In this document: positions 1 to 52,983 of the stretch, piece after piece
How the letters are laid out: every line of letters begins with the position of its first letter
How positions within the stretch are numbered: position 1 is the stretch's first letter
Source: Picocystis sp. L7
Lineage: Eukaryota > Chlorophyta > Picocystophyceae > Picocystales > Picocystaceae
Length of the DNA stretch: 64,000 bases
Assembly (NCBI GenBank): GCA_020975725.1
Contig: QXJR01000014.1
Location: 62,001 to 126,000, forward strand
Direction: 5' to 3'
The notes under the pieces: generated by a model
The model's input: the letters and a program-made list of their open reading frames with translations, nothing else
What the model was told of the DNA's origin: nothing
The model's database searches: none
Made by a program: the position numbers and the translations under genes

Positions 1-124
1 AACCTGCACCTTTCGTGCATGGAAGGAGCTCTCCAAAGAGGGGCTTGGATCAAAGCTCCTCAAAACCATGCCCAAGAGGCTTGAAGAGGTCATCCTCAAC
101 CGTGGGGAGTTCACCAAGTATTGA
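1..124 (+). CDS. Tc1/mariner-like transposase, 3' end only (cut by window edge)
   Basis: This is the last 40 codons and TGA stop (122-124) of a transposase copy identical to the C-terminal end of the four complete copies downstream. The rest of the gene lies to the left of the window. Nothing here suggests the gene itself is truncated. Confidence 0.9.
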   Translation, partial: TCTFRAWKELSKEGLGSKLLKTMPKRLEEVILNRGEFTKY

Positions 125-1703
125 TTGCCTCCCATGAGAAAATGGCTTGTCTTGTAATTTGACTTGACAGTTTCTGTCTGTTTTTCCTTCCGTTTCTCGC
201 TCAAAACCAGTCACCCCCATGGAGTCGTGTGTTGGGCTCCTACGGACTTGTAGCTGCTCCACGTAGCTCAAATCAACTAATGGAGCCCCTGTGAACGCTT
301 GCATGCAGCTGAAACGGCTTGAGAAGGCCAGCCTGGGGCTCGGCCCCGTTGATGGGACTCATGGGACCTCTCAAGACACACCCCCAGGCTTCCCTCCCCA
401 GGCTCTCGGGGATCCTTGCGAAAGCGGATCGTAACCAAACTCCGTGAGCACTACTCCTGACATGTGATTCAACTACCCTCCAGTTTTTGTGGCCAAAAAC
501 GTCGTGGTTCGTACGGTATGCCTAAAAGCCTCTCCCTGGAGGACAGGCCTGAATCACTGAGTTTCGGCCTGTTTTCAGCACCAAACTGTGGTCGTCCTTT
601 CTCAGCCACCACAGCGTTTCAGGAGCTACCCATCCGGTACAGTATTCCTCTAGCTCACTTCATAGGTCTCCCAGAGTTTCGTAGCCATCCAAGGCGCCAT
701 ACGTCCGCGGTGGCCTCGGCAGCAAGCCCTTACCCACCCCACCGCCACTTTTTCTTCATAGGGAGAGAGGGGGTGTCGCTGCGGGATCCGTGGAGCCTCG
801 GGAGGGCCTTTCCGGACGTTGCCGTTCCAATCGAAGTTGTAGAGCACTTTGTTTTGCACGGTTTTGATCGATGGATCCCGGCCTGGTTCGGCCCGTGCAA
901 GCGCCGGGAGGCCCGCGTACGTCCCAGGGTCTTTGGGTCCTGGATCCTGCCTCGTTTCCCCTGGCGGGTTCTCCTTTCTTTCGATGCGCGTATCTCTTCG
1001 AATATCGGTTGAAATCCAACAAACGATGGCTCGTTGGATAGATCTCGGCGCGATCTTTCGAACGGTGCTCTCGAAATGGCCAAATTCTGCCTGGAGCGAT
1101 TTCTAGAGGCGAAAAACCACCGGCAGGTGGTGGGGACCCCAAACGGCACCTCTGCTCAACACCTCCCCGAGGGCAGCCGAGCGCCCACGGGGAACCGGAA
1201 CGCCAAACCCGGGGAAAGGAAAGAGAGAAAGATAGGACACCTTCATGAGAAAAAGCACATCGAGAGTCGATGCTCCTGGTGCCATGAAGCGCATGTTCAA
1301 CCGCCTGGCCAAAACGCCCCAAAAAGGGTGAATTTTGGAACACCCCCGAGCCAGCCGCGCCGAGTTCACCGGAAAGACGAACGATCCAGGACCAACCAAG
1401 CTCAGATTCGGATTCTCCTCGTCGAATCACCCAGAAACACCACAAAAAAGAAGGGGGAACAGGCCTGATGTGAAGAAAAAGCCCGAGGACTCACGCTCCC
1501 CCCAAGTGGCGGTGGGGTGGGTACGTGGGGGGCGTTTCGGGATCTGCTGGATTGGGGGGGGCGTGGCGCCCGAAGTACGAGGTTTCTGGTCCTGAAATTC
1601 AAACCGTAGTTGATCCGGACGATGTACAATTCACCTGCCAAATCTCGTTGTCCTGCCGTCACTCAGCGAGTGGCAGTGCCCCCGAGAGTCACCGCTGGTA
1701 GGT
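125..1703. other. Spacer of the tandem unit, no convincing gene
   Basis: About 1.58 kb separates one transposase stop from the next transposase start, and the same spacer recurs at 2946-4524, 5767-7345, 8588-10166 and, cut short, 11409-12804. It contains open frames on both strands (for example 464-1012 plus and 756-1445 minus), but they overlap one another, are rich in Arg, Pro and Ser, and show no domain I recognise. The only structure I can support is a perfect 20-bp inverted repeat, annotated separately. For a Tc1 element the spacer is long. Confidence 0.6.
731..1523. repeat. 20-bp inverted-repeat pair inside the spacer; possible element ends
   Basis: Positions 731-750 (TACCCACCCCACC...) are the exact reverse complement of 1504-1523 (...GGTGGGGTGGGTA). 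Just inside, a TTTTTCTTCA stretch is also mirrored, offset by about 24 bases on the right side. The outermost bases are TA on both sides, which fits the TA target duplication of Tc1/mariner elements, so 731-1523 could be a short non-autonomous element inside the unit. The pair could instead be the terminal repeats of a 2.07-kb element running from 1504 through the transposase to 3571. The same pair recurs at 3552/4325, 6373/7146, 9194/9967 and 12015/12788. Confidence 0.6.
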
Positions 1704-2945
1704 ATGGCAGGTTTGGAGGGGGGGTGCTGTCAACTCCCCTCCCCCAGCACACAGGGTGAGCAAGGGAGGATTATGGGGTGGAATCGAAAGAGGAAAGACC
1801 AAATACAGCACCGACCGGAGTTCAAGGCAAAGCGCTTCGTGATGGGGAAGAAGCGCACAAAAAAGCCATCACCAGGCCTCATGGAGGAAGCGGCCATCCA
1901 GGCCACCAAAGCGGCGTACAAGGTGCTCAGTGGGAACCTCTCCGCCACGTCCAAGGTTATGAAGCGGAGTTGGGCGACAGTGAAGTCTTGGGTGAAGGAT
2001 CGTAAGCCCAAAGCTTCCCCCTCTTCGAAACGCCGTTCCCTCTCTTATGCCCGTGGTCATGGCAAGTGGCTGTGCAACTTGCTCAAGTCTCGTGCACTTG
2101 AAGGCCAGGCCATGGGAACAAGGGACGTCATGAGCGAGTGGGAAGCACGGTACGGACGTAGAGTACCCTTGAGGACCTTGCAACGGCTGTTGAAGGATTT
2201 GGGGGTGAAGACCAAGGTGCAAAAAAAAGTGATGAAGTTGCAGGCCTCGCACAAGGCCAATAGAGTGAAGTTTGCGGAACGGCACTTGGGGGATGATTTT
2301 GGGCGGGTTCTTTTCACGGATGCCCACCAAATTTACCTGGGAACCACCAAGCACAAAGGCTCCAAACGAACCCTGGTCCCTCCTGGTACCACACCCCTCG
2401 TGGAGTACAACAAGGCCCCCCCACGAATCAAAGTGTATGGTGGGGTGTGTGCCCGTGGACTCACAGGCCTGTTGACAGTCACGGGGACCACCGGGCAGCC
2501 CAGTGACTTCAAGGATGGACAAGGGAAGGTGTCCAAGGGTGTAGGACAGCAGGAGTACGCAGAAAAAGTCCTCCCTTGGCTGATGAAGGAGGGCACCAGG
2601 TTGTACAAGAAGGCCCCTTGGACCTTTCAACAGGATGGGGATGGGGCCCATCGATCGAAGGCCACCATTCTCAAGTTGGTGGAGCTCTCCACTCAAGCTC
2701 ACGTGGATCTCATGTTGGATTGGCCCTCTCTCAGCCCTGATCTTAGTCCCATTGAAAACGTGTGGTCTTGCTTGGACAGGAGGGTGGAAGCCATGGGACC
2801 CACCACCTTGGAAGAGCTCAAAACCTGCACCTTTCGTGCATGGAAGGAGCTCTCCAAAGAGGGGCTTGGATCAAAGCTCCTCAAAACCATGCCCAAGAGG
2901 CTTGAAGAGGTCATCCTCAACCGTGGGGAGTTCACCAAGTATTGA
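1704..2945 (+). CDS. Tc1/mariner-family (DDE) transposase, copy 1
   Basis: This 413-residue protein is a cut-and-paste DNA transposase. A basic N-terminal half (about residues 25-170) with helix-turn-helix character would bind the element ends. The catalytic RNase-H-like core follows: D206 in FTDAHQ, D311 in FQQDGDG and E351 in DWPSLSPDLSPIENVW, the hallmark Tc1 block. By count, 39 residues separate the second Asp and the Glu, where classic Tc1 has 34. The reading frame is open and all three acidic residues are present, so it looks potentially active. The start at 1704 is the first ATG; in-frame ATGs at residues 24 and 47 are alternatives. Family assignment is firm; activity is inference. Confidence 0.92.
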   Translation: MAGLEGGCCQLPSPSTQGEQGRIMGWNRKRKDQIQHRPEFKAKRFVMGKKRTKKPSPGLMEEAAIQATKAAYKVLSGNLSATSKVMKRSWATVKSWVKDRKPKASPSSKRRSLSYARGHGKWLCNLLKSRALEGQAMGTRDVMSEWEARYGRRVPLRTLQRLLKDLGVKTKVQKKVMKLQASHKANRVKFAERHLGDDFGRVLFTDAHQIYLGTTKHKGSKRTLVPPGTTPLVEYNKAPPRIKVYGGVCARGLTGLLTVTGTTGQPSDFKDGQGKVSKGVGQQEYAEKVLPWLMKEGTRLYKKAPWTFQQDGDGAHRSKATILKLVELSTQAHVDLMLDWPSLSPDLSPIENVWSCLDRRVEAMGPTTLEELKTCTFRAWKELSKEGLGSKLLKTMPKRLEEVILNRGEFTKY

Positions 2946-4524
2946 TTGCCTCCCATGAGAAAATGGCTTGTCTTGTAATTTGACTTGACAGTTTCTGTCT
3001 GTTTTTCCTTCCGTTTCTCGCTCAAAACCAGTCACCCCCATGGAGTCGTGTGTTGGGCTCCTACGGACTTGTAGCTGCTCCACGTAGCTCAAATCAACTA
3101 ATGGAGCCCCTGTGAACGCTTGCATGCAGCTGAAACGGCTTGAGAAGGCCAGCCTGGGGCTCGGCCCCGTTGATGGGACTCATGGGACCTCTCAAGACAC
3201 ACCCCCAGGCTTCCCTCCCCAGGCTCTCGGGGATCCTTGCGAAAGCGGATCGTAACCAAACTCCGTGAGCACTACTCCTGACATGTGATTCAACTACCCT
3301 CCAGTTTTTGTGGCCAAAAACGTCGTGGTTCGTACGGTATGCCTAAAAGCCTCTCCCTGGAGGACAGGCCTGAATCACTGAGTTTCGGCCTGTTTTCAGC
3401 ACCAAACTGTGGTCGTCCTTTCTCAGCCACCACAGCGTTTCAGGAGCTACCCATCCGGTACAGTATTCCTCTAGCTCACTTCATAGGTCTCCCAGAGTTT
3501 CGTAGCCATCCAAGGCGCCATACGTCCGCGGTGGCCTCGGCAGCAAGCCCTTACCCACCCCACCGCCACTTTTTCTTCATAGGGAGAGAGGGGGTGTCGC
3601 TGCGGGATCCGTGGAGCCTCGGGAGGGCCTTTCCGGACGTTGCCGTTCCAATCGAAGTTGTAGAGCACTTTGTTTTGCACGGTTTTGATCGATGGATCCC
3701 GGCCTGGTTCGGCCCGTGCAAGCGCCGGGAGGCCCGCGTACGTCCCAGGGTCTTTGGGTCCTGGATCCTGCCTCGTTTCCCCTGGCGGGTTCTCCTTTCT
3801 TTCGATGCGCGTATCTCTTCGAATATCGGTTGAAATCCAACAAACGATGGCTCGTTGGATAGATCTCGGCGCGATCTTTCGAACGGTGCTCTCGAAATGG
3901 CCAAATTCTGCCTGGAGCGATTTCTAGAGGCGAAAAACCACCGGCAGGTGGTGGGGACCCCAAACGGCACCTCTGCTCAACACCTCCCCGAGGGCAGCCG
4001 AGCGCCCACGGGGAACCGGAACGCCAAACCCGGGGAAAGGAAAGAGAGAAAGATAGGACACCTTCATGAGAAAAAGCACATCGAGAGTCGATGCTCCTGG
4101 TGCCATGAAGCGCATGTTCAACCGCCTGGCCAAAACGCCCCAAAAAGGGTGAATTTTGGAACACCCCCGAGCCAGCCGCGCCGAGTTCACCGGAAAGACG
4201 AACGATCCAGGACCAACCAAGCTCAGATTCGGATTCTCCTCGTCGAATCACCCAGAAACACCACAAAAAAGAAGGGGGAACAGGCCTGATGTGAAGAAAA
4301 AGCCCGAGGACTCACGCTCCCCCCAAGTGGCGGTGGGGTGGGTACGTGGGGGGCGTTTCGGGATCTGCTGGATTGGGGGGGGCGTGGCGCCCGAAGTACG
4401 AGGTTTCTGGTCCTGAAATTCAAACCGTAGTTGATCCGGACGATGTACAATTCACCTGCCAAATCTCGTTGTCCTGCCGTCACTCAGCGAGTGGCAGTGC
4501 CCCCGAGAGTCACCGCTGGTAGGT

Positions 4525-5766
4525 ATGGCAGGTTTGGAGGGGGGGTGCTGTCAACTCCCCTCCCCCAGCACACAGGGTGAGCAAGGGAGGATTATGGGGT
4601 GGAATCGAAAGAGGAAAGACCAAATACAGCACCGACCGGAGTTCAAGGCAAAGCGCTTCGTGATGGGGAAGAAGCGCACAAAAAAGCCATCACCAGGCCT
4701 CATGGAGGAAGCGGCCATCCAGGCCACCAAAGCGGCGTACAAGGTGCTCAGTGGGAACCTCTCCGCCACGTCCAAGGTTATGAAGCGGAGTTGGGCGACA
4801 GTGAAGTCTTGGGTGAAGGATCGTAAGCCCAAAGCTTCCCCCTCTTCGAAACGCCGTTCCCTCTCTTATGCCCGTGGTCATGGCAAGTGGCTGTGCAACT
4901 TGCTCAAGTCTCGTGCACTTGAAGGCCAGGCCATGGGAACAAGGGACGTCATGAGCGAGTGGGAAGCACGGTACGGACGTAGAGTACCCTTGAGGACCTT
5001 GCAACGGCTGTTGAAGGATTTGGGGGTGAAGACCAAGGTGCAAAAAAAAGTGATGAAGTTGCAGGCCTCGCACAAGGCCAATAGAGTGAAGTTTGCGGAA
5101 CGGCACTTGGGGGATGATTTTGGGCGGGTTCTTTTCACGGATGCCCACCAAATTTACCTGGGAACCACCAAGCACAAAGGCTCCAAACGAACCCTGGTCC
5201 CTCCTGGTACCACACCCCTCGTGGAGTACAACAAGGCCCCCCCACGAATCAAAGTGTATGGTGGGGTGTGTGCCCGTGGACTCACAGGCCTGTTGACAGT
5301 CACGGGGACCACCGGGCAGCCCAGTGACTTCAAGGATGGACAAGGGAAGGTGTCCAAGGGTGTAGGACAGCAGGAGTACGCAGAAAAAGTCCTCCCTTGG
5401 CTGATGAAGGAGGGCACCAGGTTGTACAAGAAGGCCCCTTGGACCTTTCAACAGGATGGGGATGGGGCCCATCGATCGAAGGCCACCATTCTCAAGTTGG
5501 TGGAGCTCTCCACTCAAGCTCACGTGGATCTCATGTTGGATTGGCCCTCTCTCAGCCCTGATCTTAGTCCCATTGAAAACGTGTGGTCTTGCTTGGACAG
5601 GAGGGTGGAAGCCATGGGACCCACCACCTTGGAAGAGCTCAAAACCTGCACCTTTCGTGCATGGAAGGAGCTCTCCAAAGAGGGGCTTGGATCAAAGCTC
5701 CTCAAAACCATGCCCAAGAGGCTTGAAGAGGTCATCCTCAACCGTGGGGAGTTCACCAAGTATTGA
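4525..5766 (+). CDS. Tc1/mariner-family (DDE) transposase, copy 2
   Basis: Second complete copy of the 413-residue transposase, 2821 bases from the first and identical to it in every stretch I compared. The D-D-E residues (206, 311, 351) and the DLSPIENVW block are kept. Lack of drift between copies argues for recent amplification or gene conversion, or for an assembly effect. Confidence 0.92.
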   Translation: MAGLEGGCCQLPSPSTQGEQGRIMGWNRKRKDQIQHRPEFKAKRFVMGKKRTKKPSPGLMEEAAIQATKAAYKVLSGNLSATSKVMKRSWATVKSWVKDRKPKASPSSKRRSLSYARGHGKWLCNLLKSRALEGQAMGTRDVMSEWEARYGRRVPLRTLQRLLKDLGVKTKVQKKVMKLQASHKANRVKFAERHLGDDFGRVLFTDAHQIYLGTTKHKGSKRTLVPPGTTPLVEYNKAPPRIKVYGGVCARGLTGLLTVTGTTGQPSDFKDGQGKVSKGVGQQEYAEKVLPWLMKEGTRLYKKAPWTFQQDGDGAHRSKATILKLVELSTQAHVDLMLDWPSLSPDLSPIENVWSCLDRRVEAMGPTTLEELKTCTFRAWKELSKEGLGSKLLKTMPKRLEEVILNRGEFTKY

Positions 5767-7345
5767 TTGCCTCCCATGAGAAAATGGCTTGTCTTGTAAT
5801 TTGACTTGACAGTTTCTGTCTGTTTTTCCTTCCGTTTCTCGCTCAAAACCAGTCACCCCCATGGAGTCGTGTGTTGGGCTCCTACGGACTTGTAGCTGCT
5901 CCACGTAGCTCAAATCAACTAATGGAGCCCCTGTGAACGCTTGCATGCAGCTGAAACGGCTTGAGAAGGCCAGCCTGGGGCTCGGCCCCGTTGATGGGAC
6001 TCATGGGACCTCTCAAGACACACCCCCAGGCTTCCCTCCCCAGGCTCTCGGGGATCCTTGCGAAAGCGGATCGTAACCAAACTCCGTGAGCACTACTCCT
6101 GACATGTGATTCAACTACCCTCCAGTTTTTGTGGCCAAAAACGTCGTGGTTCGTACGGTATGCCTAAAAGCCTCTCCCTGGAGGACAGGCCTGAATCACT
6201 GAGTTTCGGCCTGTTTTCAGCACCAAACTGTGGTCGTCCTTTCTCAGCCACCACAGCGTTTCAGGAGCTACCCATCCGGTACAGTATTCCTCTAGCTCAC
6301 TTCATAGGTCTCCCAGAGTTTCGTAGCCATCCAAGGCGCCATACGTCCGCGGTGGCCTCGGCAGCAAGCCCTTACCCACCCCACCGCCACTTTTTCTTCA
6401 TAGGGAGAGAGGGGGTGTCGCTGCGGGATCCGTGGAGCCTCGGGAGGGCCTTTCCGGACGTTGCCGTTCCAATCGAAGTTGTAGAGCACTTTGTTTTGCA
6501 CGGTTTTGATCGATGGATCCCGGCCTGGTTCGGCCCGTGCAAGCGCCGGGAGGCCCGCGTACGTCCCAGGGTCTTTGGGTCCTGGATCCTGCCTCGTTTC
6601 CCCTGGCGGGTTCTCCTTTCTTTCGATGCGCGTATCTCTTCGAATATCGGTTGAAATCCAACAAACGATGGCTCGTTGGATAGATCTCGGCGCGATCTTT
6701 CGAACGGTGCTCTCGAAATGGCCAAATTCTGCCTGGAGCGATTTCTAGAGGCGAAAAACCACCGGCAGGTGGTGGGGACCCCAAACGGCACCTCTGCTCA
6801 ACACCTCCCCGAGGGCAGCCGAGCGCCCACGGGGAACCGGAACGCCAAACCCGGGGAAAGGAAAGAGAGAAAGATAGGACACCTTCATGAGAAAAAGCAC
6901 ATCGAGAGTCGATGCTCCTGGTGCCATGAAGCGCATGTTCAACCGCCTGGCCAAAACGCCCCAAAAAGGGTGAATTTTGGAACACCCCCGAGCCAGCCGC
7001 GCCGAGTTCACCGGAAAGACGAACGATCCAGGACCAACCAAGCTCAGATTCGGATTCTCCTCGTCGAATCACCCAGAAACACCACAAAAAAGAAGGGGGA
7101 ACAGGCCTGATGTGAAGAAAAAGCCCGAGGACTCACGCTCCCCCCAAGTGGCGGTGGGGTGGGTACGTGGGGGGCGTTTCGGGATCTGCTGGATTGGGGG
7201 GGGCGTGGCGCCCGAAGTACGAGGTTTCTGGTCCTGAAATTCAAACCGTAGTTGATCCGGACGATGTACAATTCACCTGCCAAATCTCGTTGTCCTGCCG
7301 TCACTCAGCGAGTGGCAGTGCCCCCGAGAGTCACCGCTGGTAGGT

Positions 7346-8587
7346 ATGGCAGGTTTGGAGGGGGGGTGCTGTCAACTCCCCTCCCCCAGCACACAGGGTG
7401 AGCAAGGGAGGATTATGGGGTGGAATCGAAAGAGGAAAGACCAAATACAGCACCGACCGGAGTTCAAGGCAAAGCGCTTCGTGATGGGGAAGAAGCGCAC
7501 AAAAAAGCCATCACCAGGCCTCATGGAGGAAGCGGCCATCCAGGCCACCAAAGCGGCGTACAAGGTGCTCAGTGGGAACCTCTCCGCCACGTCCAAGGTT
7601 ATGAAGCGGAGTTGGGCGACAGTGAAGTCTTGGGTGAAGGATCGTAAGCCCAAAGCTTCCCCCTCTTCGAAACGCCGTTCCCTCTCTTATGCCCGTGGTC
7701 ATGGCAAGTGGCTGTGCAACTTGCTCAAGTCTCGTGCACTTGAAGGCCAGGCCATGGGAACAAGGGACGTCATGAGCGAGTGGGAAGCACGGTACGGACG
7801 TAGAGTACCCTTGAGGACCTTGCAACGGCTGTTGAAGGATTTGGGGGTGAAGACCAAGGTGCAAAAAAAAGTGATGAAGTTGCAGGCCTCGCACAAGGCC
7901 AATAGAGTGAAGTTTGCGGAACGGCACTTGGGGGATGATTTTGGGCGGGTTCTTTTCACGGATGCCCACCAAATTTACCTGGGAACCACCAAGCACAAAG
8001 GCTCCAAACGAACCCTGGTCCCTCCTGGTACCACACCCCTCGTGGAGTACAACAAGGCCCCCCCACGAATCAAAGTGTATGGTGGGGTGTGTGCCCGTGG
8101 ACTCACAGGCCTGTTGACAGTCACGGGGACCACCGGGCAGCCCAGTGACTTCAAGGATGGACAAGGGAAGGTGTCCAAGGGTGTAGGACAGCAGGAGTAC
8201 GCAGAAAAAGTCCTCCCTTGGCTGATGAAGGAGGGCACCAGGTTGTACAAGAAGGCCCCTTGGACCTTTCAACAGGATGGGGATGGGGCCCATCGATCGA
8301 AGGCCACCATTCTCAAGTTGGTGGAGCTCTCCACTCAAGCTCACGTGGATCTCATGTTGGATTGGCCCTCTCTCAGCCCTGATCTTAGTCCCATTGAAAA
8401 CGTGTGGTCTTGCTTGGACAGGAGGGTGGAAGCCATGGGACCCACCACCTTGGAAGAGCTCAAAACCTGCACCTTTCGTGCATGGAAGGAGCTCTCCAAA
8501 GAGGGGCTTGGATCAAAGCTCCTCAAAACCATGCCCAAGAGGCTTGAAGAGGTCATCCTCAACCGTGGGGAGTTCACCAAGTATTGA
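7346..8587 (+). CDS. Tc1/mariner-family (DDE) transposase, copy 3
   Basis: Third complete copy of the same 413-residue transposase, in the same orientation and with the same flanking spacer as the others. The catalytic triad is intact and no in-frame stop is seen. Confidence 0.92.
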   Translation: MAGLEGGCCQLPSPSTQGEQGRIMGWNRKRKDQIQHRPEFKAKRFVMGKKRTKKPSPGLMEEAAIQATKAAYKVLSGNLSATSKVMKRSWATVKSWVKDRKPKASPSSKRRSLSYARGHGKWLCNLLKSRALEGQAMGTRDVMSEWEARYGRRVPLRTLQRLLKDLGVKTKVQKKVMKLQASHKANRVKFAERHLGDDFGRVLFTDAHQIYLGTTKHKGSKRTLVPPGTTPLVEYNKAPPRIKVYGGVCARGLTGLLTVTGTTGQPSDFKDGQGKVSKGVGQQEYAEKVLPWLMKEGTRLYKKAPWTFQQDGDGAHRSKATILKLVELSTQAHVDLMLDWPSLSPDLSPIENVWSCLDRRVEAMGPTTLEELKTCTFRAWKELSKEGLGSKLLKTMPKRLEEVILNRGEFTKY

Positions 8588-10166
8588 TTGCCTCCCATGA
8601 GAAAATGGCTTGTCTTGTAATTTGACTTGACAGTTTCTGTCTGTTTTTCCTTCCGTTTCTCGCTCAAAACCAGTCACCCCCATGGAGTCGTGTGTTGGGC
8701 TCCTACGGACTTGTAGCTGCTCCACGTAGCTCAAATCAACTAATGGAGCCCCTGTGAACGCTTGCATGCAGCTGAAACGGCTTGAGAAGGCCAGCCTGGG
8801 GCTCGGCCCCGTTGATGGGACTCATGGGACCTCTCAAGACACACCCCCAGGCTTCCCTCCCCAGGCTCTCGGGGATCCTTGCGAAAGCGGATCGTAACCA
8901 AACTCCGTGAGCACTACTCCTGACATGTGATTCAACTACCCTCCAGTTTTTGTGGCCAAAAACGTCGTGGTTCGTACGGTATGCCTAAAAGCCTCTCCCT
9001 GGAGGACAGGCCTGAATCACTGAGTTTCGGCCTGTTTTCAGCACCAAACTGTGGTCGTCCTTTCTCAGCCACCACAGCGTTTCAGGAGCTACCCATCCGG
9101 TACAGTATTCCTCTAGCTCACTTCATAGGTCTCCCAGAGTTTCGTAGCCATCCAAGGCGCCATACGTCCGCGGTGGCCTCGGCAGCAAGCCCTTACCCAC
9201 CCCACCGCCACTTTTTCTTCATAGGGAGAGAGGGGGTGTCGCTGCGGGATCCGTGGAGCCTCGGGAGGGCCTTTCCGGACGTTGCCGTTCCAATCGAAGT
9301 TGTAGAGCACTTTGTTTTGCACGGTTTTGATCGATGGATCCCGGCCTGGTTCGGCCCGTGCAAGCGCCGGGAGGCCCGCGTACGTCCCAGGGTCTTTGGG
9401 TCCTGGATCCTGCCTCGTTTCCCCTGGCGGGTTCTCCTTTCTTTCGATGCGCGTATCTCTTCGAATATCGGTTGAAATCCAACAAACGATGGCTCGTTGG
9501 ATAGATCTCGGCGCGATCTTTCGAACGGTGCTCTCGAAATGGCCAAATTCTGCCTGGAGCGATTTCTAGAGGCGAAAAACCACCGGCAGGTGGTGGGGAC
9601 CCCAAACGGCACCTCTGCTCAACACCTCCCCGAGGGCAGCCGAGCGCCCACGGGGAACCGGAACGCCAAACCCGGGGAAAGGAAAGAGAGAAAGATAGGA
9701 CACCTTCATGAGAAAAAGCACATCGAGAGTCGATGCTCCTGGTGCCATGAAGCGCATGTTCAACCGCCTGGCCAAAACGCCCCAAAAAGGGTGAATTTTG
9801 GAACACCCCCGAGCCAGCCGCGCCGAGTTCACCGGAAAGACGAACGATCCAGGACCAACCAAGCTCAGATTCGGATTCTCCTCGTCGAATCACCCAGAAA
9901 CACCACAAAAAAGAAGGGGGAACAGGCCTGATGTGAAGAAAAAGCCCGAGGACTCACGCTCCCCCCAAGTGGCGGTGGGGTGGGTACGTGGGGGGCGTTT
10001 CGGGATCTGCTGGATTGGGGGGGGCGTGGCGCCCGAAGTACGAGGTTTCTGGTCCTGAAATTCAAACCGTAGTTGATCCGGACGATGTACAATTCACCTG
10101 CCAAATCTCGTTGTCCTGCCGTCACTCAGCGAGTGGCAGTGCCCCCGAGAGTCACCGCTGGTAGGT

Positions 10167-11408
10167 ATGGCAGGTTTGGAGGGGGGGTGCTGTCAACTCC
10201 CCTCCCCCAGCACACAGGGTGAGCAAGGGAGGATTATGGGGTGGAATCGAAAGAGGAAAGACCAAATACAGCACCGACCGGAGTTCAAGGCAAAGCGCTT
10301 CGTGATGGGGAAGAAGCGCACAAAAAAGCCATCACCAGGCCTCATGGAGGAAGCGGCCATCCAGGCCACCAAAGCGGCGTACAAGGTGCTCAGTGGGAAC
10401 CTCTCCGCCACGTCCAAGGTTATGAAGCGGAGTTGGGCGACAGTGAAGTCTTGGGTGAAGGATCGTAAGCCCAAAGCTTCCCCCTCTTCGAAACGCCGTT
10501 CCCTCTCTTATGCCCGTGGTCATGGCAAGTGGCTGTGCAACTTGCTCAAGTCTCGTGCACTTGAAGGCCAGGCCATGGGAACAAGGGACGTCATGAGCGA
10601 GTGGGAAGCACGGTACGGACGTAGAGTACCCTTGAGGACCTTGCAACGGCTGTTGAAGGATTTGGGGGTGAAGACCAAGGTGCAAAAAAAAGTGATGAAG
10701 TTGCAGGCCTCGCACAAGGCCAATAGAGTGAAGTTTGCGGAACGGCACTTGGGGGATGATTTTGGGCGGGTTCTTTTCACGGATGCCCACCAAATTTACC
10801 TGGGAACCACCAAGCACAAAGGCTCCAAACGAACCCTGGTCCCTCCTGGTACCACACCCCTCGTGGAGTACAACAAGGCCCCCCCACGAATCAAAGTGTA
10901 TGGTGGGGTGTGTGCCCGTGGACTCACAGGCCTGTTGACAGTCACGGGGACCACCGGGCAGCCCAGTGACTTCAAGGATGGACAAGGGAAGGTGTCCAAG
11001 GGTGTAGGACAGCAGGAGTACGCAGAAAAAGTCCTCCCTTGGCTGATGAAGGAGGGCACCAGGTTGTACAAGAAGGCCCCTTGGACCTTTCAACAGGATG
11101 GGGATGGGGCCCATCGATCGAAGGCCACCATTCTCAAGTTGGTGGAGCTCTCCACTCAAGCTCACGTGGATCTCATGTTGGATTGGCCCTCTCTCAGCCC
11201 TGATCTTAGTCCCATTGAAAACGTGTGGTCTTGCTTGGACAGGAGGGTGGAAGCCATGGGACCCACCACCTTGGAAGAGCTCAAAACCTGCACCTTTCGT
11301 GCATGGAAGGAGCTCTCCAAAGAGGGGCTTGGATCAAAGCTCCTCAAAACCATGCCCAAGAGGCTTGAAGAGGTCATCCTCAACCGTGGGGAGTTCACCA
11401 AGTATTGA
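10167..11408 (+). CDS. Tc1/mariner-family (DDE) transposase, copy 4
   Basis: Fourth and last complete copy. The unit that follows ends at 12804 before the next transposase would begin. The protein is the same 413 residues with D206, D311 and E351 present. Confidence 0.92.
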   Translation: MAGLEGGCCQLPSPSTQGEQGRIMGWNRKRKDQIQHRPEFKAKRFVMGKKRTKKPSPGLMEEAAIQATKAAYKVLSGNLSATSKVMKRSWATVKSWVKDRKPKASPSSKRRSLSYARGHGKWLCNLLKSRALEGQAMGTRDVMSEWEARYGRRVPLRTLQRLLKDLGVKTKVQKKVMKLQASHKANRVKFAERHLGDDFGRVLFTDAHQIYLGTTKHKGSKRTLVPPGTTPLVEYNKAPPRIKVYGGVCARGLTGLLTVTGTTGQPSDFKDGQGKVSKGVGQQEYAEKVLPWLMKEGTRLYKKAPWTFQQDGDGAHRSKATILKLVELSTQAHVDLMLDWPSLSPDLSPIENVWSCLDRRVEAMGPTTLEELKTCTFRAWKELSKEGLGSKLLKTMPKRLEEVILNRGEFTKY

Positions 11409-12014
11409 TTGCCTCCCATGAGAAAATGGCTTGTCTTGTAATTTGACTTGACAGTTTCTGTCTGTTTTTCCTTCCGTTTCTCGCTCAAAACCAGTCACCC
11501 CCATGGAGTCGTGTGTTGGGCTCCTACGGACTTGTAGCTGCTCCACGTAGCTCAAATCAACTAATGGAGCCCCTGTGAACGCTTGCATGCAGCTGAAACG
11601 GCTTGAGAAGGCCAGCCTGGGGCTCGGCCCCGTTGATGGGACTCATGGGACCTCTCAAGACACACCCCCAGGCTTCCCTCCCCAGGCTCTCGGGGATCCT
11701 TGCGAAAGCGGATCGTAACCAAACTCCGTGAGCACTACTCCTGACATGTGATTCAACTACCCTCCAGTTTTTGTGGCCAAAAACGTCGTGGTTCGTACGG
11801 TATGCCTAAAAGCCTCTCCCTGGAGGACAGGCCTGAATCACTGAGTTTCGGCCTGTTTTCAGCACCAAACTGTGGTCGTCCTTTCTCAGCCACCACAGCG
11901 TTTCAGGAGCTACCCATCCGGTACAGTATTCCTCTAGCTCACTTCATAGGTCTCCCAGAGTTTCGTAGCCATCCAAGGCGCCATACGTCCGCGGTGGCCT
12001 CGGCAGCAAGCCCT

Positions 12015-12804
12015 TACCCACCCCACCGCCACTTTTTCTTCATAGGGAGAGAGGGGGTGTCGCTGCGGGATCCGTGGAGCCTCGGGAGGGCCTTTCCGGA
12101 CGTTGCCGTTCCAATCGAAGTTGTAGAGCACTTTGTTTTGCACGGTTTTGATCGATGGATCCCGGCCTGGTTCGGCCCGTGCAAGCGCCGGGAGGCCCGC
12201 GTACGTCCCAGGGTCTTTGGGTCCTGGATCCTGCCTCGTTTCCCCTGGCGGGTTCTCCTTTCTTTCGATGCGCGTATCTCTTCGAATATCGGTTGAAATC
12301 CAACAAACGATGGCTCGTTGGATAGATCTCGGCGCGATCTTTCGAACGGTGCTCTCGAAATGGCCAAATTCTGCCTGGAGCGATTTCTAGAGGCGAAAAA
12401 CCACCGGCAGGTGGTGGGGACCCCAAACGGCACCTCTGCTCAACACCTCCCCGAGGGCAGCCGAGCGCCCACGGGGAACCGGAACGCCAAACCCGGGGAA
12501 AGGAAAGAGAGAAAGATAGGACACCTTCATGAGAAAAAGCACATCGAGAGTCGATGCTCCTGGTGCCATGAAGCGCATGTTCAACCGCCTGGCCAAAACG
12601 CCCCAAAAAGGGTGAATTTTGGAACACCCCCGAGCCAGCCGCGCCGAGTTCACCGGAAAGACGAACGATCCAGGACCAACCAAGCTCAGATTCGGATTCT
12701 CCTCGTCGAATCACCCAGAAACACCACAAAAAAGAAGGGGGAACAGGCCTGATGTGAAGAAAAAGCCCGAGGACTCACGCTCCCCCCAAGTGGCGGTGGG
12801 GTGG
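12015..12804. repeat. Last copy of the spacer inverted repeat; array ends inside it
   Basis: The left arm (12015-12034) is complete. The right arm starts at 12788 but only 17 of its 20 bases are kept: after 12804 the sequence changes from unit sequence to unrelated DNA (TCCCCCAGG). The array boundary thus falls one base short of the G that precedes the terminal TA. This makes it likely that the inverted repeat is a real recombination or transposition end. Confidence 0.55.
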
Positions 12805-13640
12805 TCCCCCAGGATGGCGGGAAGCCCGATCCCGGGGGGAACGTAGGTGGGTTGTCCATCCAGGCCCTTGTTAGTCAATTGGCTGTACCTCGGTACAATC
12901 ATGATGGTTCACTCGAGTCACCCCAGTTCGGAGAAGATACTCCCACCCCCGGTGGTTTCGAGTCTCGGAAGGGATCGAAGGGACTGGGTCACCCCGTCAC
13001 AGAAGACTGCAGGGGTAGGTAGCTTGTAATGCATGGGACTGTAGCACTGCCCCCCACGTGATACACTCCAGTGGAGTGTCAGAAGGGACGGGTAGAGAGA
13101 AGTGTGGACGCTTGCTGCTGTGTTGGACTCGTGAGCCTACGAGAAGACCTGAAGAGCACGGCAACTGGAACCGTTGGAACACACGTACAGTCAAACTTGG
13201 AACCTGGTGTTTGGTGATTCGCACGCTCGTGGGTTGAACTGTAATACTAGGTCGTGAATGACTGGTGACAATCATCGATTGCTCCCACCCAAAACCCACT
13301 GAGAAAGACGATTCGGACAACAGCCCTCCCCTTCCACCGTGGCATGGATCCGATCCCCCTCTCCCTCTCCTCTCCTTCGGGGAGGAGGTGCGGGGAAGGG
13401 TCCCCCTTCCCCTCCACGAGTCCCATCGGTTCTGGACCACGTGGAATGCGCACGCACGGTGGGGGTTGCGAGGAAGACATCGTACGATACCGACTGATCC
13501 CACTCCTCGAAGACCAGGGAAGGAACCATGCGATGCAGGACGAGGGGTGGGGGTCCAACCGATCGAAAGAGAGAGAGGCGAGGTGGAACGGACGTCGACG
13601 GTGGAGGCGGCGCGGGTCCTCCCAAACGCACACGCGCGAC
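12805..13640. other. Unique DNA between the array and RPB10, no gene seen
   Basis: About 840 bases with no convincing open frame. The first 500 bases look like ordinary flanking DNA; the last 300 are CpG-rich like other promoter regions here and probably hold the RPB10 promoter and 5' leader. Confidence 0.5.
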
Positions 13641-20072: not shown

Positions 20073-23000
20073 CTACTTGCGTGCAGGGCGGCGCGCTTTT
20101 ACGATGCGGCGACGCTGACCAGGCTGCGGCTGCCCGGCCGAACCCATGCTGAAACCACCCCCACCAGCAGGGAAGGATCCAGGGTTATTGGATGGAAAGG
20201 AGGCACCCCCGCCAAAGCTGGGGGCGCCACCTGGCGCGCCGAATCCAGGTGTACTCCCCGACGCACCAAACGAAGGCGCACCAAATGCGGGTGCACTGCC
20301 GGATGCCCCGAACGCGGGTGCACTGCCGGATGCCCCGAACGCGGGTGCACTGCCGGATGCCCCGAACGCGGGTGCACTGCCGGATGCCCCGAATGCGGGT
20401 GCACTGCCAGATGTACCAAAACCAGGAGCGCTTCCAGCGCCGCCTCCGAAAGCGGGAGCCCCTCCACCGAAGGACGGAGTGCTTGATCCTGCCCCGAATC
20501 CAGTGGCGGGAGATGCAGGGGCGGGAGCATTGGCATTCGCAAAAGGAGCCCCCGCACCACCAAAGGAGGGAGCATGCTGGGCGCCACCAAAAGAGCCTGC
20601 GGATGCACTTCCACCAAACGCCGAAACGCTTGCACCTGCACCAAAACCAGGAGCAGTGCTGGCGCCTCCAAAACCGGATGTGCCAGGTACAGAACCAAAA
20701 GCGGGAGCGGCGCCCGACGAACCAAACACAGGTGCGCCGGAGATACCCTTGTCTCCGCCAAATATTGGCGTTGCCGCACCTCCACCAAAAGTAGAAGCGG
20801 CGGATGCAGCACCGAATGCAGGCCCCGCTGAAACGCCTCCAAATGCTGGAGTACCCGTTCCTGCCCCAAAAGCCCCGGAACCAACACTACCACCAAGGGC
20901 AGAGGTGCTGCTGGTGCCATCAAACGCACCTGGGGCTGCTGCAGCGCCGAAGGACGGAGGAATCCCACCCTTTTCATGGGCTGGCGCAGTGCCACCATGT
21001 CCACTGGATGGGTGACCAGCTGAGGCTCCAAAGGTGAAGCCACCACTCCTCGTGGTAGCATTTGCCTCGGCCTGATCAGAAACTGTGCCGCTTGGCTGGG
21101 TGGACACGCGGCTCCCTGGTTCAGGACCGCTTGCAGGTGGCGCAGGAGTGCTCCCACTCGCAGGGGAGGCCGTTGCAGTGGGGGATGCTCCAAAAACGAA
21201 TGGATTTGCGGCCTTTCCAGCCGTGCTGGCATTGACGGGAGATGCTCCAAACGTGAAGGTGGCACTTGGCTTAGGGATGTCGCTCTCTGTGCTTGACCTT
21301 TGCTTATCTTCCCCACCTTGTGTTCCAAACTTGAACATTGCTGGTTGATGCCCCACTCCGACCGTTGGGGAGGGGGGCTCCTCATCTGTTGGTTGAGTGC
21401 TTGCATCCACCGCCAAACTGACCGGGGCCTTGGGAGTCGGGAAGGTTGGTGCTGTCGATGGCGCCGCTGATATGGGCTGGGCTTCGCTGTCCTGCTGATT
21501 CTCGGTCACCCCAGCTGCGGCGTTGGTAGATGGGGCGCTGCCGAAGACGAATCCTCCAGGTGCCGAGGCTGCAAACTTGAAAGCAGGAAAACCGCTCGAA
21601 GCAGGCTTGGCATCCTCTTGTTTATTCCCAGCCGTCCCGCCTGGGAACCCGCTGAGAGGTGCTTTCGCCACCCCCTGTCCGCCATCCTGCTTCAGTCCCT
21701 TCTGATCACCTGCTCGGCCTTGGCCGAAGACGAATATAGGCGCAGGCGTCGCTCCTGCATCGGCATCGTCCTTCGGTGGAGCCAAAGAGAACAGGGGTGC
21801 CGCACCGCTGGTCCCAGGAGGAGACCCGGATGCTTTATTGATCTCTTCTTTGGCCGCATTGACTGCCGCCTGGCTGGCTTCCTCGTTCTTCTTCAGGAAA
21901 CTCGCGTCCCATCCACCCGACACCTCGGGGACGGGTGCATCCTCCTTTTGTCGGACCTCCTTCTCTTCTGCTGTCCCGTCCCCTGTTGCTTTCTCTGCTG
22001 GATCCTTCTTCTGGCCAATGTTGGGAAAGCTCGTTTCAGTCTTGCCGAACACGAATCCCACCGTGGGGGCCTGCGCGGGGCTTGCGCCGAACTGAAAGAA
22101 CGAGCCTGCCTTCGTGGGGGTCTCTCCGCCTTTCTTGGCTTGCGCTCCTGCCTCTCCTTCTCGCCCCTTTTGCTCGTCCACATCGACCGTAGGCGCGCCC
22201 CACTTGAACGAGATGGGAGCTCCCTCGCCACCATTTGCCTTTGCTGCATCGGTGCCCAATCCTTTGCCCCCACTCGCGGGTCCTGTTGGTTTGGTTCCGG
22301 CTTTGGCCGACACGTCTGCCGCGGCCTTGGCATCCTCCGCGGTCTTTTTGAGGAAGTCCAGGCCGGTGGACAGTCGGGGGGGCGTGGGCGTACGAATGCC
22401 GGTTGAGAATCCTTTCTGGGGCACTTCCTCTTCGTGCCCTTCCTCTTCTCCTTCGTCATCTGCGTCTGCCATGGGAAGCGGAGATGCTGCTGCTGCAGCC
22501 GCTTGTGCATTCGCCCTCGCTATGTCTGTGGGGGACCCAGGAACGGACTGGTCGGTCCCTGCCGGGGTCGCGGCAGGGGTGCCGTTGGTTCCGAAGGCAA
22601 ACACCGGAGCGGGAATGCCATCCGATGCGCCTACATCGGCCAGGCGTTCCAATTCCGGCTCCGGGACGGGGGAACGGAAGGTGAACACGGGAAACGCATC
22701 GTCCGATGGCTTCGCTTCCACCGATCGGTCCATGGGGACGGTCCTCTCGGCCTCCCCTGGAGCGCGTTTCTCCCCTTCTGTCACCTTTCCTCCTCGAAGG
22801 GAAATCTGGTCCTCTGCTGCGAGCCTCTCCCTCGATGCCCGGACCTCCCCCCCTTCCTGTTCTGTTCCCGGCCCGTCCTGCGCCAGCGTTCCCAGCGTGT
22901 CCACCGGAGGCGGTCGTTCCTTCATCGTGGTCTTTGACAACGGGGTGGACAGCTTCTGGAACGTCTTGGAAAAGTCCACGGGGGTGGGTCGTCCAGCGTC

Positions 23001-35185: not shown

Positions 35186-35317
35186 ACCTCTTGCATCGTG
35201 GTAATCCATCTTTGTGATGGAACCTTTCCCATCCCTCCCCCGATCCCATCCGACCGAATGTCCCGTACCCGTACGTCCCACGTGGCACGTCCTGGACGGC
35301 TCCAGGGGAGCGTCCTT

Positions 35318-35354
35318 CCCTTTCGAGACCGACCGTTCCCTCCTTTCGAACCCA
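35318..35354 (+). promoter_or_regulatory. Paired CCCTTTCGA motifs upstream of the helicase
   Basis: CCCTTTCGAGACC (35318-35330) and CCTTTCGAACCC (35342-35353) lie 40-75 bases before the helicase ATG. They match the recurring motif seen upstream of other genes. Confidence 0.45.
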
Positions 35355-35390
35355 TCCGATCCCCCTTCTACGCCTCCCTTTCGTGTCCGG

Positions 35391-38183
35391 ATGACCTCCC
35401 GACACACCCACGCTCTCGTGGCCCAAATCCGACGCGCATTGGTGCGCATCAACATGCGCGTCGGACGGAGAATGGCGCATGCAGGACGTGCCACGCCGCT
35501 GGGGAAGAAGGACGTGGGACCCAAAGCCATGAAATGGCTGCAGGAAGGATGCAAGGAGTACGCAAAACACCTGAAGGACGTGGAGGTGGAACTGGGACCA
35601 GACTACGTGCTGGTGGACGAAGCCAAGCCGTTTCTAGAACGACATCCGACGCCCAAAGGATGCAAAGATCAGTGCAGGATGATAGCCGAACACCACGACA
35701 GCGTGTGGGAGAACGTGCAGAAGGAACTCAGAACAATGCTTGCGCAGGAAGTGGGACAGCAATGGAAGGAACACCAGGCCTGGAGGAGGATCAAACAGGT
35801 GCCCAAATTGCACCGACTCAGGAACCAGAAGACAGGGATCACGGCGAGAGAAGGAAATCACCGGCAATTGGATGTCGGAACGGATGATCCGACCGTGGAA
35901 GAGAAAATGGAGTCGTGGAGGAGATGTCTTCAACAAGTAGAAGATCTGGCGGACAACGCAGAGAGAGCACTCCAAGCGGAACGAATGGCAGAAGTGTACG
36001 CTCTCACCACCACTGCCCAGAAATCGTTGCTGAACACCCTGGAGCCCATTGCTCAGGAAGAAGTAGCCGCCAAAGTCCTCGGACCCTTGCAGCTTGTCAC
36101 CTCCTCGACTGGATTCGGTGGGGCACACGAAGTGCTGCTTCGCCCAGCCCATGGTACGAGGCTAACTTCCACCTTGCTTGAGCCAGGAGATGCCGTGTTA
36201 CTTTGTTCCTGTAGAGCCTGTGTCCTTCCAGCAGTAAGGGAGCAGATGAGTGCAGGGAAGGCTGCGGCGCACCTGGAGCAAGAAGCAGGGCAGGTGTCTA
36301 AACATGCTGGATGGGAAAGGGCAACGGGGTCAGGTCACGCTGTTGGGGCTATGGACCTGGCCAGTGCTCTGGATGTCACCGAGGTTCCATCTTCTGGAGA
36401 ACTGAGACGGATAACCAATGATTCAATCACCGTTTCGCTGAGTCGTAGGGCCGACGATAGCATCTTTCTGGATCTGTACGGAGAGCCTCTCATGATCCTT
36501 GGGGTTCCTGATCAGGTAACGTTCACTCGTCAGCAAGATGCGCTCGTAAAATTGAAGCTTGTTTGCCGACAGGCAATGAGATGCATTCAGCGCAATCAAC
36601 CTCTTCCTCCTGCTTGTTCTATTGTTGCTGCCGCCTTTGAAGATGACCAGCGTGTTCCCACCACCGCTGTCAGGAACAACCAAGAAGCAGAGAATGTGGT
36701 GAAGGGAGTAGGAGTATCTGCTTCTCCAATGGTTGGAGAGGGAGGGATGGATGAAGCGCAACTGACAGCGGTAAACTTTGCGCTGGACCTGTCAGAGCCA
36801 CTTTGCCTCATCAAGGGCCCTCCGGGTACGGGAAAAACGCAGGTGATTGCTCAGATAGTGGCCAGAGCTGTGGCATCTGGCCAAAAGGTGCTTGCCTGTG
36901 CCCCTTCCAACATGGCTGTCGACAATATGCTGGAGAAGTTTGTGGCGTGCGGATTAAGCGTGGTACGTATTGGGAATCCGCAGAGGGTGAGCACAGTAGC
37001 ACTTGATGTTTCTCTTGGTCATGTGGTTGACAAGAAGTTGGAATCATGGAGAGAAAGCATGAGGATGCAAAGAAGGGACCTGAGAGCAGATTTGATTGCT
37101 GCAGGCAATGGGGTAGATGCTAGGAATATTCGTGCGAACCTTCGCAGGCTTGCAAGGCTGAACCGTCAGAAAGAGAGGAGTGTGACCTTAGAAGTCTTGA
37201 GAGCAGCAAGCATCATTCTATGCACAACAATCGGTGCCGGTGATCCTGTGTTTGAGCTACTTCATGGGGAGGAGAGTACCTTTGATTTAGCGATCGTTGA
37301 TGAAGCAGCTCAGGCAACTGAACCAGCCACCTGGATACCACTTCTTAAAGCTAGGCGTGCCGTGTTGGTGGGAGACTCGTGCCAATTGCCTCCCACCATC
37401 ATCTCCAGGGATGCCATTGAAATGGGTCTTGGTCGGAGCATGTTGGAAAGAGCAGAGGGTTTGAGGGGAGGTGCACTCTTGAGGCAATTGGACATTCAGT
37501 ACAGAATGCATCAATTGATTTGCAGTTGGAGTTCTAATGCAATGTATGCAGGATCCGTGCGTTCTGCAAAGTTTGTTGCCAAGAGAACTCTAGCAGATAT
37601 GCCAGGTGTGCAGAGTACTGATGAGACGTCGTCAACCCTGATGGTGCTGGATACACGATCTCCGACTGGGGTCCTGCAAGCAGGTGCAGTCGAGAGATCA
37701 GCAATTGCATTTGGGTCCGGCGTTGCATCACTGTACAATGAAGCGGAAGCAGATCTTGTGAAACTTCATGTCATACGCTTGCTCCAGGCAGGGGTGGCAG
37801 GTAACAAGATGGTTGTGCAATCTCCTTACAATGCACAGGTCGAATTGCTGCGGGAAACTCTGGAATGCACTCCTGGGGCCGAGGAAATTGAAGTCGCATC
37901 AGTCGATTCATTCCAAGGTAGAGAGGCAGACGCAGTCATCATCTCCATGGTTCGTTGCAATCAGTCCGGTGCAGTCGGCTTTTTGGCAGATGCACGTAGG
38001 CTCAACGTAGCTGTCACTCGGGCCCGTAGACACGTGACGATTGTCTGCGATTCCCAAACTGTCACGTGTGATTCATTCCTGCGGCAGTTGCTGCAGTATG
38101 TCAAGGCTCATGGAAGACTTTTGCATGGACCAGAGGCTTCCGGCACCGTTTCTATTAAGCAGAATGTTGGCAATATTGTGTAG
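35391..38183 (+). CDS. IGHMBP2/SMUBP2-like superfamily 1B helicase
   Basis: 930 residues. The helicase core carries all expected motifs: Q-type AQLTAVNFALD, Walker A GPPGTGKT (about 476-483), Ia CAPSNMAVDNMLEK, Walker B VDEAAQATEPA (DE at about 637), III VGDSCQLPPT, IV LDIQYRMHQLICSW, V VDSFQGREADAVIISMVRCN and VI LNVAVTRARRHVTIV. The motif set is that of Upf1-like helicases, and the closest pattern is IGHMBP2, a 5'-3' RNA/DNA helicase linked to translation and tRNA/rRNA metabolism. The N-terminal 60 residues are Arg/His/Ala-rich and lack acids, so an organelle-targeted form is possible. The R3H and AN1 zinc finger domains of animal IGHMBP2 are absent. ATG 35391 was chosen; the upstream in-frame stretch carries promoter motifs. 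Confidence 0.88.
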   Translation: MTSRHTHALVAQIRRALVRINMRVGRRMAHAGRATPLGKKDVGPKAMKWLQEGCKEYAKHLKDVEVELGPDYVLVDEAKPFLERHPTPKGCKDQCRMIAEHHDSVWENVQKELRTMLAQEVGQQWKEHQAWRRIKQVPKLHRLRNQKTGITAREGNHRQLDVGTDDPTVEEKMESWRRCLQQVEDLADNAERALQAERMAEVYALTTTAQKSLLNTLEPIAQEEVAAKVLGPLQLVTSSTGFGGAHEVLLRPAHGTRLTSTLLEPGDAVLLCSCRACVLPAVREQMSAGKAAAHLEQEAGQVSKHAGWERATGSGHAVGAMDLASALDVTEVPSSGELRRITNDSITVSLSRRADDSIFLDLYGEPLMILGVPDQVTFTRQQDALVKLKLVCRQAMRCIQRNQPLPPACSIVAAAFEDDQRVPTTAVRNNQEAENVVKGVGVSASPMVGEGGMDEAQLTAVNFALDLSEPLCLIKGPPGTGKTQVIAQIVARAVASGQKVLACAPSNMAVDNMLEKFVACGLSVVRIGNPQRVSTVALDVSLGHVVDKKLESWRESMRMQRRDLRADLIAAGNGVDARNIRANLRRLARLNRQKERSVTLEVLRAASIILCTTIGAGDPVFELLHGEESTFDLAIVDEAAQATEPATWIPLLKARRAVLVGDSCQLPPTIISRDAIEMGLGRSMLERAEGLRGGALLRQLDIQYRMHQLICSWSSNAMYAGSVRSAKFVAKRTLADMPGVQSTDETSSTLMVLDTRSPTGVLQAGAVERSAIAFGSGVASLYNEAEADLVKLHVIRLLQAGVAGNKMVVQSPYNAQVELLRETLECTPGAEEIEVASVDSFQGREADAVIISMVRCNQSGAVGFLADARRLNVAVTRARRHVTIVCDSQTVTCDSFLRQLLQYVKAHGRLLHGPEASGTVSIKQNVGNIV

Positions 38184-51162: not shown

Positions 51163-52983
<1,821 letters not shown>

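Follow-up and report, generated by a model that had tools for sequence, protein, structure and literature searches.

The window analysed here is a stretch of 64,000 nucleotides (C12:62001-126000, where C12 is contig QXJR01000014.1 of Picocystis sp. L7, assembly GCA_020975725.1), and it opens with the right end of a tandem array whose units each carry a transposase gene. A self-comparison matched positions 1-12804 to themselves at a shift of 2,821 bp with 0 mismatches, confirming a preliminary description of the same DNA that had reported complete, identical head-to-tail units with intact transposases (open frames of 413 codons). When the genome (20.5 Mb, 30 contigs) was searched with one unit, matches broke at two fixed points, which delimit a 785-bp repeat, L, and a 2,036-bp part, I. 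Together these make up the period of 2,821 bp; the period is real, but it is not the element, which has the form (L-I)n-L. In this assembly the array is (L-I)18-L and occupies 51,564 bp (C12:23240-74803). All 18 I copies have the same score and 100% identity in the genome search, all 19 L copies are at 100% identity, one of them with 1 inserted base, and the sole difference between units is one extra A in a homopolymer (A6 vs A5). The letters themselves were read for C12:22301-24301, C12:42001-62000 and the window, the remaining units being taken from the search table. TTTAGGG telomere repeats stand at the start of C12, which puts the array at a distance of about 23 to 75 kb from the chromosome end.

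The preliminary description had named the left boundary of the array and single copies elsewhere in the genome as things to look for: the array starts at C12:23240, and copies of the forms L-I-L and solo L are present alongside (L-I)n-L multimers. Each L ends in 16-bp terminal inverted repeats. Besides the array, 37 loci of this family (family 1 of the four described below) were cut out, comprising 10 L-I-L or L-I-L-I-L copies, two of them with an altered right end, one truncated L-I (C8), and 26 Ls without I, two of which have no readable left end. Since the genome search scored the best candidates only, these counts are lower bounds.

The outer ends of these copies define the target site. 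Identical 3-bp flanks were found by script at 24 of the 35 loci with both ends readable, loci being counted on both strands, against a shuffled mean of about 3.3 and a largest value of 8 in 10,000 shuffles. The whole array is flanked by GTC on both sides. The earlier view that independent insertions do not explain it is supported. Taking 25 duplication sites including that of the array, each read on both strands, G or C occupied the outer bases of the duplication in 47 of 50 readings and the second bases beyond it in 48 of 50, while the centre base was free. Furthermore, three insertions into copies of a single host repeat, namely an L-I-L-I-L of 6,427 bp, an L-I-L of 3,606 bp and a 783-bp solo L, all fall inside a stretch of about 45 bp. 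These copies provide mutual empty sites for the three insertions, and only 3 bp are duplicated. A TA duplication, as in the preliminary description, was at first assumed from the TA beside L within the array, and was ruled out by the outer ends; the target duplication of family 1 differs from the TA duplication of Tc1/mariner elements. In our reading, the array is very probably an (L-I)18-L multimer of a DNA transposon that is composite-like and bounded by long direct repeats, and it would have grown by recombination between its Ls. Its features within the window are listed in Table 1.

Table 1. Parts of the array that fall within the window (window positions)
Feature	Position	Strand	Remark
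Right end of the (L-I)18-L multimer	1..12803	+	array start at C12:23240, left of the window
3' part of I, cut by the window edge	1..734	+	transposase frame ends at 124
L, 785 bp	735..1519	+	termini CACCCCACCGCCACTT and its complement; limits from breakpoints of genome matches
I, 2,036 bp	1520..3555	+	ends GGTA...TACC
DDE transposase, 413 aa (amino acids)	1704..2945	+	HTH_Tnp_Tc3_2, DDE_3
Transposase frames identical to 1704..2945	4525-5766, 7346-8587, 10167-11408	+	
L	3556..4340	+	
I	4341..6376	+	
L	6377..7161	+	
I	7162..9197	+	
L	9198..9982	+	
I	9983..12018	+	
Last L of the array	12019..12803	+	
Right 3-bp target duplication, GTC	12804..12806	.	left copy C12:23237-23239, outside the window

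Base 12804, at which the self-match ends, is the first base of the target duplication, and its agreement with the repeat unit is a coincidence. Some individual loci of family 1 are also of note. Two solo Ls, L040 (C4:1125k) and L041 (C4:1078k), both 783 bp long, are 1.0% apart; because such near-identical copies have different flanks and duplications, a solo L may move by itself. L051 (C3:900k) is a solo L without a duplication whose right flank begins GGTAC, resembling the start of I, and is perhaps the remnant of a lost I. Four copies, L049 (C7:742k), L058 (C11:592k), L039 (C4:407k) and L052 (C4:547k), lie in or beside other L-type elements, L049 adjoining a family-2 L at C7:743194. Beyond the array, the window holds a 27-bp tandem repeat (4.7 copies, 20287-20413) within a 1,316-codon frame that has no Pfam match, and three intron-free frames of host-type genes: an AAA_11/AAA_12 helicase (35214-38183), a multiple C2-domain protein with a plant-type C-terminal domain (47651-51007) and a DEAD-box helicase (51163-52977). 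Rfam (gathering threshold) and tRNA scans of the window gave no matches.

Four families with one plan

A search of the genome with the transposase returned 75 matches, which include three further families with units of 2,810 bp (family 2), 2,466 bp (family 3) and 2,461 bp (family 4). These share the L/I plan, as judged from the sequence at one locus each (for family 4, at its left end only) and from the positions at which L and either I or the transposase matched. Unbroken loci number 11 in family 1 (30 I, three multimers of 18, 2 and 2 units), six in family 2 (8 I, two multimers of 2 and 2 units), eight in family 3 (23 transposases, five multimers of 9, 4, 3, 2 and 2 units; at its C25 locus the last L is not among the matches listed) and one in family 4 (7 transposases). 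Together they hold 68 I or transposases at 26 loci, with 11 multimers, C4:468k and C4:954k being counted as two loci. Four loci were left out as truncated, interrupted or degenerate: C8, C18, C3:1006-1018 kb and C20:180 kb. The third of these (C3:1006257-1018744) is a family-2 copy split by about 8.9 kb, with L and positions 1-923 of I on its left and positions 920-2025 of I and L on its right; 4 bases of I thus occur twice, the pattern that a later insertion would give. The fourth (C20:180449-182466) is a degenerate relative of the transposase, with 34-47% identity and several stops, and adjoins an L that is 86% like that of family 3.

All four families have L termini of the form CA..TG, beginning CACC or CAGT. 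For the inner ends of I, families 1 and 2 have GGTA..TACC and family 3 has GGTC..GACC; these ends are similar, but the adjoining sequence is not. L measures 785 bp in families 1, 2 and 3 and 780 bp in family 4. Within family 1 it is exactly 785 bp long in 31 of 45 cases (range 778 to 788, two other pairs of 816 and 817 bp being set aside where a neighbouring terminus had been used), and in the family-4 array it measures 780 to 783 bp. Beyond their ends, the Ls of families 1 and 2 can be aligned in register with no gaps; their identity is 41%, which exceeds that of shifted alignments by 7.5 standard deviations. The other five pairs of families give no in-register signal (z from -1.2 to 2.1). 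Since lengths are near-constant at 780-785 bp and sequences mostly unrelated, the length of L is kept while its sequence is not. No coding signal was found in L, and polymorphic sites of the family-1 L have no codon-position bias. Two candidate frames, one of 229 codons on the minus strand and one of 182 codons spanning I and L, were rejected, as they are not full-length throughout the 12 family-1 Ls (out of 50) that were examined. The I portion of the 182-codon frame is open in all 10 loci examined, with many residues differing between the two I clades described below.

The 413-aa transposase scores above the Pfam cut-off for HTH_Tnp_Tc3_2 and slightly below it for DDE_3 (28.0 bits against 28.6), and it matches Sleeping Beauty SB100X with E = 2.7e-17. 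Across nine aligned sequences, residues D206, D311 and E351 never vary, the last two being 39 residues apart; judging by the SB100X alignment, we take them to be the catalytic residues. Its helix-turn-helix and catalytic domains place the protein in the IS630/Tc1/mariner group, and the TA duplication of Tc1/mariner is absent. The earlier naming of the unit as Tc1/mariner is thus borne out only in part: the transposase is of IS630/Tc1 type, but the ends of the element are 785-bp direct repeats carrying inverted repeats. Ratios of nonsynonymous to synonymous substitution rates (dN/dS) of about 0.13-0.21 were obtained in six comparisons, and the transposase is under purifying selection. A single open frame covers the whole query in 28 of the 30 family-1 transposases at unbroken loci, the exceptions being C16, with a stop, and C24:697k, which is split.

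The transposase is, as far as its frames can be read, the only recognised protein of I. In the family-1 frames tested, Pfam found only the DDE transposase domains and no reverse transcriptase or polyprotein; the frames other than the transposase gave no Pfam match, and so no His-Me finger endonuclease either, a very diverged or spliced gene being possible. There is no convincing second frame conserved between families: one weak similarity, over 107 aa, links frames of family 1 with those of family 2 (E = 6.8e-6), and we take it as leftover DNA similarity. A protein search gave 29 matches, among which P0001-P0007 have 44-53% identity; their contigs, none longer than 2,620 bp, are too short for the plan to be visible. 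P0003 is by alignment nearly the family-2 protein, and by eye only P0005 is like family 3 and P0004 like family 4. Viral contigs gave 29 pattern matches and no relatives, and prokaryote genomes 24 weak transposase loci.

Exchange between repeats and growth of the array

Ls of one locus are usually alike: they have 0-1 internal differences at 7 of the 10 loci, besides the C12 array, that hold at least two Ls. Between family-1 loci, L diverges by 2.3-12.4% (C8 and the duplicated C4 pair left out). At both loci of that pair, C4:468k and C4:954k, the Ls are the same except for the final ten bases of the right-hand one. These two L-I-L copies (L030 and L029, respectively) have the same flanks on opposite strands and the same altered end, and are copies of one segment.

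The I sequences of family 1 fall into two clades, with C5:489k apart. For each locus the comparison used its first L and its first I, and C5:489k, C4:468k and C8 were excluded. Within clade A (six pairs), divergence is 6.06% in L, 1.06% in coding I and 0.71% in non-coding I; within clade B (ten pairs), the values are 5.72%, 0.61% and 1.55%. Between clades, the one pair compared (C12 vs C24:378k) differs by 9.4% in L and 10.6% in non-coding I. The C12 array and the C1 copy are a case in point: their I differs at 2 of 2,016 positions and their L at 29 of 768, with 27 of the 29 differences inside 301-500, a tract that is due to conversion. Over 34 Ls and 107 sites, the fraction of incompatible neighbouring sites is 0.49, compared with 0.68 after permutation (2000 permutations). 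This tract, the site incompatibility and the likeness of Ls within loci show that L is exchanged among copies and usually homogenised within a locus. L and I have partly separate histories, as the divergences within the two clades show. The region at about 270-500 of the family-1 L is an exchange hotspot: a stretch of about 60 bp (around 420-480) exists in two diverged versions, which recur among copies in differing combinations. Family 3, whose L and I sequences are almost the same at every locus, shows no decoupling and is too young to tell.

The junctions suggest that the transposase acts at the tips of L, inserting solo Ls or whole (L-I)n-L blocks into G/C-rich targets with duplication of 3 bp. 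Homologous recombination between the direct-repeat Ls would then give rise to extra units, solo Ls and possibly L-I circles, and the same recombination would keep the Ls of one locus alike. Such recombination is the most likely cause of the growth of the array; the tandem could have lengthened by unequal crossing-over or by integration of an L-I circle into an L, and the data fit either. Both had been put forward in the preliminary description, and they now stand as the leading causes. A satellite origin, which it also listed, is not needed, given that a single GTC duplication flanks the array as it would one insertion, 23 kb inside the telomere repeat, and that multimers of four families occur elsewhere. 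That the C12 units do not diverge implies a recent expansion, continual homogenisation or, in part, an effect of assembly.

Several observations weigh against this interpretation. The first and second L of the C15 locus have 32 differences, 26 of them at 375-491, and scores are unequal among the eight Ls of the family-4 array and between the two Ls at C27:356k (family 2). The 3-bp duplication was scored in family 1 only, where the script failed to find it at 11 of the 35 loci, among them L049, which was misread through a neighbouring terminus and has CAC on both sides by eye; one family-3 locus fits such a duplication but sits in a run of C. Moreover, the identity of the 18 units could partly be an assembly effect. 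That the true C12 locus has fewer units, or a different number of them, seems rather unlikely to us: the 18 units are indeed without substitutions and differ solely in the length of a homopolymer, but four families have multimers (of 2, 3, 4, 7 and 9 units) elsewhere in the genome, exactly spaced and between unique flanks, and the unequal Ls of the family-4 array and the unlike Ls of C15 also speak against such an artefact.

A further alternative concerns the way in which units arise. If L and I are separable, I could spread into resident solo Ls, for example when a break in a solo L is repaired with an L-I-L at another place as template; the resident L would thereby become two, and an old insertion would be made autonomous. 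The divergence of L within I clades (6.1% and 5.7%), far above that of non-coding I (0.71% and 1.55%), argues that L does not travel with I, the between-clade values being about equal (9.4% and 10.6%); the 0-1 base that separates Ls at 7 of 10 loci besides C12 also agrees with doubling. However, a single crossover or break repair should leave two different chimeric Ls, unless one was later converted. The same numbers would result if whole elements inserted and their Ls were then converted from other copies, as the 27/29 tract of C12 and C1 illustrates, and family 3 has no decoupling of L and I. We hold this alternative to be possible, if the less probable account; the data show recombination between Ls, and both entry of I and later conversion of L fit them. 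By far the least probable is an element of the long terminal repeat (LTR) retrotransposon type copied via RNA. Its direct repeats, solo forms and repeat-sharing multimers would resemble those seen here, but Pfam found nothing but DDE transposase domains in the frames tested, no second protein is shared across families apart from the weak 107-aa match, and L has 16-bp inverted termini starting CACC or CAGT.

Comparison with known systems

The plan of a multimer-forming DNA transposon with long direct repeats has a close counterpart in KolobokP. In the portions of Kojima and Bao (2022, PMC9587614) used here, KolobokP has an internal region (INT) between long terminal direct repeats (LTDRs) with short inverted termini, occurs as solo repeats, and forms (LTDR-INT)n-LTDR multimers bounded by one target duplication. 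Long direct repeats with inverted termini of their own, solo forms and multimers are likewise found in Picocystis. Repeat length is restricted in both (about 450 or 660 bp in KolobokP, 780-785 bp here), and both have short symmetric internal ends (TATA..TATA in one KolobokP family, GGTA..TACC here). According to the same portions of that paper, KolobokP elements differ in having animal hosts, a Kolobok-group transposase, where Pfam and PDB matches give the IS630/Tc1/mariner group here, and termini of the form 5'-RR..YY-3', where families 1 to 4 have CA..TG. Most of their families, though seemingly not all, encode a His-Me finger endonuclease, which was not found here in the frames tested, and excision of a single LTDR is reported, whereas no clear case of an I with a single flanking L was found here outside truncated copies. 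Recombination and circle models similar to ours have been proposed for KolobokP (PMC9587614, in the part used).

Other systems share single aspects of the plan. Direct terminal repeats, solo repeats and arrays sharing a repeat recall LTR retrotransposons and terminal-repeat retrotransposons in miniature (TRIMs), as far as the sources used describe them; unlike these, the Picocystis elements have 16-bp inverted termini, a DDE transposase of the IS630/Tc1/mariner group and no polymerase that we found. Zator elements, near the IS630-Tc1-mariner group, have a 3-bp duplication. As treated in the sections used of PMC7386202 and PMC8533490, IS630-Tc1-mariner elements resemble ours in their HTH_Tnp_Tc3_2 and DDE_3 domains and their likeness to Sleeping Beauty, and duplicate TA; Fot-type pogo elements have TAA or TAAA instead, and Sailor has TATA. 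This TA-based duplication contrasts with one of 3 bp here, G/C-rich and without TA. Bacterial composite and IS26-type pseudo-composite transposons also have directly oriented mobile ends around a centre, and circles joining an existing copy are one proposed route (PMC9587614, where it touches on them); here, unlike there, the transposase gene is central and the ends have no coding signal.

Among the titles and abstracts listed in searches of an open-access library, with Repbase and most subscription papers outside this scope, we found no paper with this plan besides that on KolobokP. The plan is already known; what we regard as new is its combination with an IS630/Tc1/mariner-group transposase and a 3-bp non-TA duplication. 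KolobokP is described, in the part used, as unlike other DNA transposons, its multimers being tied to its homing endonuclease (PMC9587614). Because the same plan is found with a second transposase group, in four families of one 20.5-Mb genome and with no endonuclease found, our results suggest convergent evolution, and that such multimers need no homing endonuclease. One could tentatively go further and picture a separate IS630/Tc1/mariner-group lineage, independent of KolobokP and without a recognisable homing endonuclease, in which the element has two modules: a mobile end unit L, protein-less and constant in length, and a module I with the transposase, able to enter resident Ls, double them and multiply in register. 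Old solo insertions would regain autonomy in this way, and identical units would build up into arrays; this fuller picture is, in our estimate, improbable rather than probable. An L of fixed length without sequence conservation, together with split histories of L and I, makes the restoration and multiplication of such elements testable by comparison of strains within a species. Finally, the G/C-rich 3-bp target adds to a group whose targets are given as TA-based in the sections used of PMC7386202 and PMC8533490.

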